Of a DNA stretch of 32,846 nt, positions 15,793 through 19,282 are shown in pieces; positions within the stretch are counted from its first letter, which is position 1; each line of letters starts with the position of its first letter. Source of the DNA: a bacterium (lineage in GTDB: Bacteria > Vulcanimicrobiota > Vulcanimicrobiia > Vulcanimicrobiales > Vulcanimicrobiaceae). The notes beneath the pieces are model-generated. The model was not told where the DNA came from and did not search any database. It saw nothing but the letters and a program-made list of their open reading frames with translations. The stretch covers positions 1-32,846 of the forward strand of contig JAJYCL010000031.1 in NCBI GenBank assembly GCA_021778415.1. Direction: 5' to 3'. The translations under genes were made by a program, and so were the position numbers.

Positions 15793-16680
15793 TTAGAATG
15801 TTGCTCCTGGCGCTGCTAGCATGCGGCGCAGATAGAGAGGAAGTGAAAAGAGACGCGCGTGTGTTTGCGCGTCGTAAAAGAAATTCTCGCCCGACAACTG
15901 CGAGCAGTAGCTATCGATTCGTTCGCGAGCCAGAACGGAAAGATCGATCTCATCGCTGCATGCTAAAAAAGCCCAATCGGTATCAAACGCCGGGACGTGC
16001 GTGAAAAACGAGGTCACGTGCGCATAGTGCCTACGCAACGTGCGCGCCATTTTGCAATGCAAGGAGGCATTGTGCCATGCCGCCGTGCTGGCTTGCAACA
16101 CATAGACGCCACCTGGTGCAAGGCGTGCTTTAATATCGGCAAATACGTCATGATTGAACAACAGATTCGACGGCGAATCTTCAAGCGGTTCGGTGAGGTC
16201 GGAAATAATGACGCCGTACTGGCCGCGATCTTCGCGCAAATACGCCAACGCATCGCCGACGATAACGTTTGCGCGCGGATTCTCAAAAGCGCCATCGGCC
16301 CACTCGGGAAGATACTTTTTAGAAAGATCGATCACCAAGCCGTCGATGTCGACCATTGTACAGCGCTTGACCCCCTTATGCCGCAGCACTTCGCGTAAGG
16401 TCGCGCCCTCGCCACCGCCGAGAATCAACACCTCTTCGATGCTCCTTGCCGCAGCCATCGCGGGGTGAACCAGCGTCTCATGGTAGATCTTCTCATCGCC
16501 TTGCGACGATTGCGTATCGCCGTCGAGAATGAGCATCTTGCCGAACACCGGCGTCTCGATGACCGAGACTTGCTGAAAGTCGCTCCGTCCTTCGAAAAAG
16601 ACACGCGAAATTGCATGATGGTGGGCCTCGGTGGGCGCCGATTCTTCGACGTACCATTGCCAAAATTCAGTCTTGGGCAT
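15793..16680 (-). CDS. speE: Spermidine synthase
   Basis: 295 aa from the ATG at 16680 (MPKTEFWQWY); the in-frame start at 16710 would run into the divergent gene and lacks family sequence. It transfers aminopropyl from decarboxylated SAM to putrescine. Family features are GKMLILDGDTQSSQGDEKIYHE, LILGGGEGATLREVLRH (decarboxylated-SAM binding), DIDGLVIDLSKKYLPEW and the catalytic-loop IISDLTEPLEDSP. SpeD, which makes its co-substrate, is encoded 460 bp upstream on the same strand, with a plus-strand gene in between. Confidence 0.95.
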   Translation of the reverse strand: MPKTEFWQWYVEESAPTEAHHHAISRVFFEGRSDFQQVSVIETPVFGKMLILDGDTQSSQGDEKIYHETLVHPAMAAARSIEEVLILGGGEGATLREVLRHKGVKRCTMVDIDGLVIDLSKKYLPEWADGAFENPRANVIVGDALAYLREDRGQYGVIISDLTEPLEDSPSNLLFNHDVFADIKARLAPGGVYVLQASTAAWHNASLHCKMARTLRRHYAHVTSFFTHVPAFDTDWAFLACSDEIDLSVLARERIDSYCSQLSGENFFYDAQTHARLFSLPLYLRRMLAAPGATF

Positions 16681-16703
16681 AGGGCGCGGGAGGTTCGCCG
16701 TGA

Positions 16704-17087
16704 ATGCCACCCAAAACTTCTCGACCTGTGATTATCCTCGCATCGATCTTTATTGGGCTCGTCGCCCTGATCCACGCCTACATTCTCATTCTCGAAGTCT
16801 TTCTTTGGGAGACGCCGCGCGGCCAACGTGCCTTCGGCAATACTCCCGTCTCGGCGGCGGCGACTAAAACGCTGGCCGCCAACCAAGGTCTCTACAATGG
16901 CTTTCTCGCCGCCGGGCTTGTCGTCGGCTTCTTTCTCTTGCATGACCTCCCGATGACGTTTTTCTTGCTCGGATGCGTCATCGTTGCTGCGCTTTTTGGC
17001 GCCGCGACGACAAAAATTGTTCGCATTCTTTTCATCCAGGGTCTGCCGGCGCTCCTCGCCCTCATCGCGCTTATCGTAGCAAGATAA
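16704..17087 (+). CDS. DUF1304 family membrane protein
   Basis: 127 aa with four predicted membrane helices: residues about 8-30, 66-80, 84-102 and 108-126. LIHAYILILEVFLWETPRGQRAFG and NQGLYNGFLAAGLV are typical of DUF1304, a family of unknown function. A GGGAGG lies ten bases before the ATG. It is divergent from speE with about 23 bases between them and convergent with speD, so it splits the polyamine genes. Confidence 0.88.
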   Translation: MPPKTSRPVIILASIFIGLVALIHAYILILEVFLWETPRGQRAFGNTPVSAAATKTLAANQGLYNGFLAAGLVVGFFLLHDLPMTFFLLGCVIVAALFGAATTKIVRILFIQGLPALLALIALIVAR

Positions 17088-17113
17088 ACGCCTCCGACTT
17101 TCGACGGAGGCGT
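17088..17113. terminator. Bidirectional hairpin terminator
   Basis: ACGCCTCCG/CGGAGGCGT is a perfect 9-bp stem with an 8-base loop between the convergent DUF1304 and speD genes. On the minus strand it is followed by TTATCTT, on the plus strand by GAAGGGG, so it suits speD better. Confidence 0.6.
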
Positions 17114-17142: not shown

Positions 17143-17553
17143 CTAGGCCGAGAGTTGTTGCGTCTCGTGATCGCGAGTGACGACGTGGGTGTACTGGCCC
17201 GAAGGCTGCGCGATGCCGCGCTTGACTTCTGTCGTCAGCATGGAACTGGCACCGAGGAGTTTGGCTGCAAAATCACAGGCCAACCATGGGTCGGTGTGGT
17301 CGCCGCAGGTGTAAAAATCCATTGCCGCATACCCTGACTCAGGCCAGGTATGAATACTAATATGCGACTCGGCGAGGACGACCACGCCTGAGACGCCTTG
17401 CGGCTGGAAACGGTGAAAGGCGACTTCCATAATTGTCGCTCTGGAGGCCTTGGCGGCTCCGACCATCATCTCGCGGACGCCATCGACGTCGGTGAGCAAT
17501 TCGGGGCTACATCCCGACAGTTCGCACACAATATGCGTTCCGAGTGCATTCAA
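17143..17553 (-). CDS. speD: S-adenosylmethionine decarboxylase proenzyme
   Basis: 136 aa, the short bacterial/archaeal class (SpeH-like). The chain self-cleaves to give a pyruvoyl group at S63 in LAESHISIHTWPES; H68 and C83 (FYTCGD) match the catalytic His and Cys positions known in the Thermotoga enzyme. It makes decarboxylated SAM for SpeE. The start is TTG at 17553, matching the family N-terminus NALGTHIVCELSGC; an AGGAG lies 11 bases upstream, inside the imperfect palindrome CTAGGAGCCTAG. A promoter and a long structured leader precede it. Confidence 0.95.
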   Translation of the reverse strand: MNALGTHIVCELSGCSPELLTDVDGVREMMVGAAKASRATIMEVAFHRFQPQGVSGVVVLAESHISIHTWPESGYAAMDFYTCGDHTDPWLACDFAAKLLGASSMLTTEVKRGIAQPSGQYTHVVTRDHETQQLSA

Positions 17554-17739
17554 TTTCTACTAGGCTCCTAGGTTTCCGGGAGAAAATCCCACCTCCGGAC
17601 TTCGTCGGCTGGCGTCTGCGAGATGCAGTCACGTCCCCGACCTTTCGATAAGCTCTTGCCGGCGCTTTTCGGTGCACGGGCGACTTACCGCGATGGCACG
17701 AACGGGCGTGCCTCCCCTACCGTGGACGTAAAACGTCCG
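17554..17739 (-). promoter_or_regulatory. Structured 5' leader of speD, candidate riboswitch/attenuator
   Basis: About 185 nt lie between the predicted start point near 17739 and the TTG start. Read on the minus strand, it holds hairpins at 17738-17724 (GGACGT/ACGTCC), 17712-17695 (GGCACG/CGTGCC), 17641-17604 (outer GTCGG/CCGAC, inner CTGC/GCAG with internal loops) and 17599-17575 (TCCGGAG pairing CTC-CGGA with one bulged C). The last is four bases from the sequence carrying AGGAG. No known SAM-I, SAM-II or polyamine element was recognised by eye. Function is inferred from length, structure and position. Confidence 0.5.
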
Positions 17740-17745
17740 GCATGT

Positions 17746-17774
17746 ATAGTACCGACCCCCGCTCCCCCTGTAAA
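17746..17774 (-). promoter_or_regulatory. speD promoter
   Basis: On the minus strand TTTACA (17774-17769), a 17-base spacer, then TACTAT (17751-17746). Five of six bases match the -35 consensus and four of six the -10. The predicted start is near 17739. Confidence 0.65.
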
Positions 17775-17797: not shown

Positions 17798-17815
17798 GTG
17801 AAGTAAAGACTTCAC
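17798..17815. promoter_or_regulatory. Inverted repeat upstream of sufB, candidate operator
   Basis: GTGAAGT-AAAG-ACTTCAC is a perfect 7-4-7 inverted repeat ending 42 bases before the sufB ATG and just upstream of the best -35 (TTGACG). Fe-S genes are often controlled by Rrf2 or SufR regulators binding such sites; it is not the classical IscR or SufR consensus, so the regulator is unknown. Confidence 0.5.
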
Positions 17816-17857: not shown

Positions 17858-19282
17858 ATGGCAACGCAAGTACAGGCGGATTCCGCTCCAAACGAGCTTC
17901 TCTCGGATTACCGGCAAGGGTTTCACGACCCGGAGAACTACGTTTTTAAATCCGGCAAGGGCCTCACCCGCGAGATCGTCGAGCGTATCTCCGCGATGAA
18001 AGAGGAACCGGAGTGGATGCGTGAGTTTCGCCTGCATGCGTTCGAGACGTTCCAAAGCAAACCGATGCCGACATGGGGCGATTCGAAATTGCTCTCGGAG
18101 ATCGATTTTGCCGACATCCACTATTTCGTGCGGTCAACCGACGGCCCGGAGCGCTCCTGGGACGATGTCCCCGACGACATTAAACGGACCTTCGATCGCC
18201 TCGGCATCCCGGAAGCGGAGCGCAAGTTTCTCTCCGGCGTTTCGGCCCAATATGAATCCGAAGTGGTCTATCACTCGGTCGTCGAGGAGCTCGATCGCGA
18301 TGGCGTGATCTTTTGCGATATGGATACGGCCGTGAAGAAGTATCCCGAACTCGTCAAAAAATACTTAGCCACGATCATCCCCGTCGCCGACAACAAGTTT
18401 GCCGCGTTGAACTCGGCGGTCTGGAGTGGCGGATCGTTCGTCTACGTTCCTAAAGGCGTCACCGTGGCGATGCCGCTGCAAGCGTACTTCCGTATTAATG
18501 CGGAAAACATGGGCCAATTCGAGCGCACGCTGATCATCGCCGACGAAGGCGCAAAGGTGCATTATATCGAGGGATGTACGGCGCCGAAGTTTTCAACGTC
18601 GTCCTTGCACTCGGCCGTCGTCGAGCTCATTGCCTTTGAGGGCGCTTCGATTCGCTATACGACGATTCAGAACTGGTATCGCAATATTTTTAATCTCGTG
18701 ACCAAACGCGCCTATGCGTATAAAAACGCAACGGTTGAATGGGTCGATGGCAACATCGGATCCAAGCTCACGATGAAGTATCCGGCGATCTACCTGATGG
18801 GCGAAGGCGCTCGCGGAGAAATTCTCTCGATGGCATTTGCCGGCGAAGGCCAGCATCAAGATGCCGGTGCAAAAATCATTCACGCAGCAAAAAACACCAC
18901 GTCGGTCGTCACTAACAAATCCGTCACCGCGCATGGCGGCAAAACGACCTACCGCGGGCTCGTTGAAGTTCATCCAGGGGCAACGGGAACGAAGACACGC
19001 GTGAAGTGCGACGCCCTCATTATGGATGATCAATCCTCAAGCGACACCAAGCCGACGATGCAAATTCATGAATCGAGCGCGACGGTCGAGCATGAAGCCA
19101 GCGTGAGCAAAATCGGCGATGATCAACTCTTCTATGCCATGAGCCGCGGCCTCTCGGAAGCCGATGCAACCGCGATGATCGTCAACGGCTTCTTCGATTT
19201 CTTCGTGAAAGAATTACCGATGGAATATGCCGTCGAGCTCAATAGACTCGTCAAAATGGAGATGGAAGGCTCGGTCGGATAA
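17858..19282 (+). CDS. sufB: Fe-S cluster assembly protein SufB
   Basis: 474 aa, usual for SufB. It is the scaffold core of the SufBCD complex that builds Fe-S clusters in the cytoplasm. Diagnostic segments are [65 protein letters not shown], and the C-terminal [19 protein letters not shown] plus [17 protein letters not shown]. The spacing from any ribosome binding site to the ATG is poor (GAGGA ends two bases before it), consistent with a leaderless start. sufC, sufD and sufS, normally adjacent, are absent here; a Rieske gene follows after seven bases. Confidence 0.95.

Follow-up and report, generated by a model that had tools for sequence, protein, structure and literature searches.

A new conserved leader RNA upstream of the S-adenosylmethionine decarboxylase gene speD in Candidatus Eremiobacterota

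In the SAM-II and SAM-V riboswitches an H-type pseudoknot forms the aptamer, which lies beside or over the Shine-Dalgarno sequence. Like these RNAs, the speD leader described here has a compact H-type pseudoknot and is likely to act on translation, but its pseudoknot lies about 130 nt upstream of the Shine-Dalgarno sequence and no Rfam model matches it. Natural polyamine riboswitches have long been disputed, and the 2023 paper on a spermidine riboswitch rests on rare variants of SAM-I that act by transcription termination (Salvail et al., 2023, PMC10853860). That riboswitch and the speD leader are alike in preceding polyamine-synthesis genes (speD, speE and speB included in the published case) and in being thought to sense the product of the pathway. 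However, the published RNA combines a SAM-I-like four-stem aptamer with a terminator, whereas the speD leader carries a pseudoknot followed by serial hairpins and is terminator-free. Messenger RNAs of the Escherichia coli polyamine modulon, which are stimulated by polyamines, have UUG starts and 10-nt spacing (PMC4405209). The speD leader resembles them in its UUG start and in a Shine-Dalgarno spacing that is unusually long, but a conserved leader with several helices is not what defines the modulon mRNAs. Finally, an Hfq-bound region in Bacillus subtilis labelled "unknown or speD leader" (PMC3574147) likewise maps upstream of speD; it is uncharacterised there, and the P5 strand described below was found in neither of two plasmid-borne Bacillota speD leaders, the related leader L148 among them. 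In the open-licence literature we found no Eremiobacterota riboswitch and no speD RNA motif, although a description that we have not seen is possible.

The window analysed here, a stretch of 32,846 nt, comes from a 2.59 Mb genome of Candidatus Eremiobacterota (Vulcanimicrobiota, WPS-2), a little-known phylum of soil bacteria; in this genome speD and the divergent gene sufB are separated by an intergenic region of 304 bases (Table 1). An earlier note on this DNA had proposed that a promoter, TTTACA-N17-TACTAT, drives transcription from a start about 185 nt before a TTG codon. The promoter is indeed present on the minus strand and is kept among relatives: a matching promoter occurs in 71 of 73 distinct leaders, with a 17-nt spacer in 69. 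Assuming a start about 7 nt past the −10 box, the leader spans positions 17554-17739 (minus strand) and measures about 186 nt; as judged from the promoter, the 5′ end of the speD mRNA is predicted near 17739. The promoter spacer contains two G-runs (17752-17768, minus), as do 52 of the 71 promoters of relatives, and these are possibly a protein-binding site. A genome-wide search with the G-run promoter pattern returned no exact matches, the pattern being so strict that it missed even the window's own promoter.

Table 1. Features of the speD locus and leader in the window.
Feature	Positions	Strand	Basis
speD, S-adenosylmethionine decarboxylase	17143..17553	minus	PF02675, E 4.8e-41
sufB, divergent from speD	17858-19282	plus	–
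Sigma-70-like promoter TTTACA-N17-TACTAT, two G-runs in spacer	17746..17774	minus	matching promoters in relatives
P1, first hairpin, length and sequence variable among relatives	17720..17740	minus	window fold and family alignment
P2 with H-type pseudoknot	17695..17716	minus	compensatory changes, tree-based null
P3, long hairpin	17646..17690	minus	covariation, tree-based null
P4 hairpin, with conserved AUAG/AAAG joint ahead of it at 17645-17642	17604..17641	minus	compensatory changes, both at the base and in the apical stem
P5, with the strand GGAGGUGGGAUU at 17596-17585 and, at 17584-17579, a 3′ arm (UUCUCC) that varies	17579..17596	minus	sequence conservation, GGAGGTGGGAT exact in 71 of 72
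Shine-Dalgarno AGGAG, inside genome-specific near-palindrome CCTAGGAGCCTAG	17565..17569	minus	relatives' leaders
speD start codon UUG	17551..17553	minus	SpeD protein match and relatives

Among 71 distinct leaders the start codon of speD is UUG in 64, GUG in five and AUG in two, and AGGAG is present in 61, mostly at a distance of 10-12 nt from the start codon. The near-palindrome in which the earlier note had embedded this AGGAG is real in the window genome, and the AGGAG itself is conserved, but relatives lack the palindrome around it. An inefficient start codon and unusual spacing of this kind would suit control without any aptamer, in which initiation is weak and directly polyamine-sensitive at the level of the ribosome and the mRNA, and the E. 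coli mRNAs with UUG starts and 10-nt spacing provide precedents (PMC4405209). We regard this explanation as quite improbable, since it leaves the conserved P2-P4 elements and the P5 strand unexplained and since the E. coli genes are polyamine-stimulated, a response that for speD would amount to positive feedback.

Five hairpin elements, P1 to P5, make up the speD leader, where at least four had been claimed, and P1-P4 of the window's minimum-energy fold agree with the structure obtained by comparison. P1 lies outside the conserved core; the conserved part runs from after P1 to the start codon. Within it, a conserved RNA of about 135 nt consists of the pseudoknotted P2, then P3, P4 and the P5 strand, and is followed by the Shine-Dalgarno sequence and the UUG. 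In P2, the GGG at 17716-17714 pairs with the loop CCC at 17706-17704 and the stem is formed by 17712-17707 with 17700-17695; its consensus in alignment A2 (52 leaders), which supports the proposed structure, reads GGG-N1–2-GGCGCG-CCC-N2–5-CGCGCC. The P3 outer helix comprises seven base pairs (17690-17684 with 17652-17646) and is followed by a conserved internal loop, UC opposite AAGA, and by an inner stem (17681-17674 with 17665-17658) that includes a C-C mismatch; in A2 the internal loop leads into three pairs, then this mismatch and an apical stem that varies. A pairing of CCGGAC in P1 with GUCCGG before P5 is possible in the window genome; it is not kept in relatives and we rejected it.

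From the window sequence alone this structure would not be credible, because its single-sequence stability is no greater than chance: compared with shuffled sequences, folding gave z values of −0.07 for the sense strand and −0.23 for the other strand. It is the comparative data that settle the structure. Sequences upstream of speD in the family, sampled at close to one per genus, can be aligned end to end, and the leader from promoter to start codon is conserved in nearly every genus. Taken together, 20 of the 35 pairs change on both sides and 95.2% of the cells are paired, with double changes in 106 cells against 25 in shuffles and 3-15 with slid partners; in the P3 outer helix both sides change in six of the seven pairs. 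The alignments were built by sequence alone and the structure was drawn from them, so that such counts lean towards that structure, for which the slid-partner and tree-based controls are a partial remedy. The tree-based null was added because related sequences can outperform shuffles without any structure, and in it each column's substitutions were simulated at random on a tree of speD coding sequences for 73 distinct leaders. All helices tested in this way lie above the null, with p = 0.02 for the pseudoknot, 0.0035 for P2, 0.0005 for the outer and 0.002 for the inner helix of P3, and 0.001 each for the base and the apical stem of P4, and 49 double changes fall on the same branch of the speD tree. 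Support for the pseudoknot comes from few events: AGG/CCU replaces GGG/CCC in three genomes and one genome has GGG/CCU. G-U pairs outnumber A-C combinations by 131 to 14, and therefore the RNA lies on the sense strand of speD. The 73 leaders were chosen by an exact P5 strand and this set is therefore uninformative on P5. An unguided covariation analysis of all column pairs on a leader-derived tree, which has low power, placed most of its top canonical pairs in the proposed helices; its E-values were weak (at least 0.35) and non-pairing columns that divide two deep groups ranked equally high, and it was replaced by the test of named pairs on the independent speD tree. The structured speD leader of the earlier note is borne out by this strong covariation among homologous leaders, a check that the note itself had set.

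A covariance model of the leader, R1, was used to search the family (99 genomes) and the Eremiobacterota phylum. The model matches 85 of the 99 family genomes, including 53 of the 55 good ones, and two genomes of a sister family, with one copy in each apart from G018, which has two. The remaining matches in the phylum (E 0.03-0.07) look like chance, and by this within-phylum search the core of the leader RNA is confined to one order. Every match for which the downstream sequence was read (part of the 88 genomes with a match) leads to speD, at about 50 nt or less from the conserved strand, and among fetched matches with readable downstream sequence speD is the only gene associated with the RNA. 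In genome G038 a protein search found no speD, and the first speD codons are present there before the contig ends. With Rfam 15 covariance models we obtained no match in the window leader (E ≤ 10) and none in the leaders of relatives, in line with the earlier note, which had recognised no known class; the SAM-I model RF00162 in particular matched neither the window leader (E ≤ 10), nor the relatives' leaders, nor the whole genome. The speD leader is a new family of structured, probably cis-regulatory RNA. Two oddities surfaced along the way: genome G018 has two speD genes with an RNA leader before each (L026 and L052), and as it is an estimated 7% contaminated another organism may be the origin of the second copy, while L082 (CAJCIN010000188.1), labelled "Rhodospirillales bacterium", encodes a SpeD of the same kind as that of family genome G014 and is probably a mislabelled Eremiobacterota MAG.

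Hairpins related to P5 have a wider distribution than the core. In a count that did not select for it, the P5 strand GGAGGUGGGAU recurs exactly in 71 of 72 distinct leaders of the family. Most other families of the phylum have a related hairpin, without P2-P4, ahead of speD (e.g., L184-L205 and L035-L054), as in GGAGGU-GGG-AUCUCC and GGUGAG-AUU-CUCACC. The GGAGGU-containing hairpin that most families of the phylum carry before speD is a more ancient layer of this leader. In folding stability it surpasses shuffles only modestly, and the evidence for P5 is therefore sequence conservation and not covariation. In 147 genomes the pattern GGAGGTGGGATNYCC occurs at about one copy per genome where present and is nearly confined to speD leaders, with two matches for its reversed control; in the two non-speD matches that were read the surrounding sequence is unrelated to the speD leader.

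The GGAGGUG of P5 complements the 3′ end of 16S rRNA, and it resembles a perfect Shine-Dalgarno sequence. This complementarity, together with the related hairpin that recurs upstream of speD in most of the phylum's families, would fit a constitutive element in which GGAGGUG is an upstream landing site for the ribosome and P2-P4 protect or space the 5′ end, with nothing being sensed. Against this, the conserved core is elaborate and serves just one gene of a pathway, and the element is not used before other genes in the same genomes; we consider such a constitutive role improbable. GGA motifs in both P5 and the Shine-Dalgarno sequence also bring to mind CsrA, which is encoded in the window genome (E 1.3e-25) and could bind at these motifs and repress translation of speD. 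Nevertheless, the leader is kept without a CsrA match in the near-complete genomes G009 (97%), G007 (99%) and G021 (96%), subject to the caveat of MAG incompleteness, and G041 and G043 keep P5 without a CsrA match. Since, in addition, the GGA of the P5 loop is absent in some relatives and P2-P4 would go unexplained, control by CsrA seems very improbable.

As to how the RNA works, there is no terminator-like site between the speD promoter and the start codon, and open reading frames of at least eight codons with a Shine-Dalgarno-like word occur in only 15 of the 73 leaders and at varying positions. No leader peptide is conserved and an attenuator based on one is disfavoured. Because terminator and conserved leader peptide are both lacking and the leader ends at a Shine-Dalgarno sequence mostly 10-12 nt from the UUG, the RNA, which would act in cis on speD, probably does so at translation initiation. 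In the window genome the CUCC in the 3′ arm of P5 has two alternative pairing partners, the GGAG of P5 and the Shine-Dalgarno AGGAG. A simple anti-Shine-Dalgarno toggle is unsupported, since this choice of pairing is not kept across 71 relatives; when these were folded in silico with the P5 strand blocked, the mean unpaired value of the Shine-Dalgarno sequence went from 0.64 to 0.62.

We favour metabolite sensing because of the identity of the gene, the frequent speD-speE neighbourhood (speE directly follows speD in many relatives), and two features of the structure, its size and its invariant unpaired bases. What we found is a covarying, conserved leader structure upstream of a metabolic gene, as in a riboswitch, and the gene context and the kind of conservation make ligand sensing plausible. 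However, since the RNA serves one gene only, its genomic context does not tell a ligand from a protein partner. P2-P5 might be recognised by SpeD itself, or by some other RNA-binding protein, for autogenous control of translation with no small ligand, and the large structure, its invariant unpaired bases and the strict association with one gene, typical of autogenous control and also of some riboswitches, would all agree with this. SpeD shows no RNA-binding domain, only AdoMet_dc being seen, and no candidate protein was identified; a protein-bound leader is, in our judgement, unlikely, with perhaps a small minority of the probability. A riboswitch for a metabolite between SAM and spermidine is the best explanation, at roughly an even chance. 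Here P2-P4 would sense the metabolite, most likely (and less surely than the action in cis) spermidine, decarboxylated SAM or methylthioadenosine; ligand binding would decide the availability of the P5 strand and the ribosome-binding region, and SpeD would be turned down when its product is plentiful. That the leader of about 135 nt acts in cis on speD in just this way, with P2-P4 sensing such a metabolite and gating ribosome binding, we judge to be a shade short of evenly balanced. More tentatively still, it may represent an unprecedented riboswitch class, with an aptamer of pseudoknot, P3 and P4 for spermidine, decarboxylated SAM or a close metabolite, that acts on translation through the phylum-wide Shine-Dalgarno-like hairpin. 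Counting against the riboswitch reading are the ordinary single-sequence stability, the lack of effect of the P5 block and the limitation of the core to one order.

If true, the new class would give the polyamine pathway a riboswitch that has no relation to SAM-I, and with a second, unrelated leader RNA fixed to speD the control of spermidine synthesis by RNA could be tested directly. For a largely uncultivated phylum the leader is also a candidate structured RNA whose one target gene is clear and whose more than 70 distinct natural variants can guide mutational tests.

Further observations concern the surroundings of the leader. Directly 3′ of the speD stop codon lies a terminator-like hairpin with a T-rich tail (17088-17113, minus), which is consistent with speD forming a single-gene transcript in the window genome. 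In the window speE (minus strand) is separated from speD by an opposite-strand DUF1304 gene whose start overlaps that of speE (15793-17087). On the sufB side of the intergenic region a perfect inverted repeat, GTGAAGT-N4-ACTTCAC, occupies positions 17798-17815; it is the single exact copy in the genome, similar sequence is present in several relatives, and the repeat may serve the suf genes as an operator.
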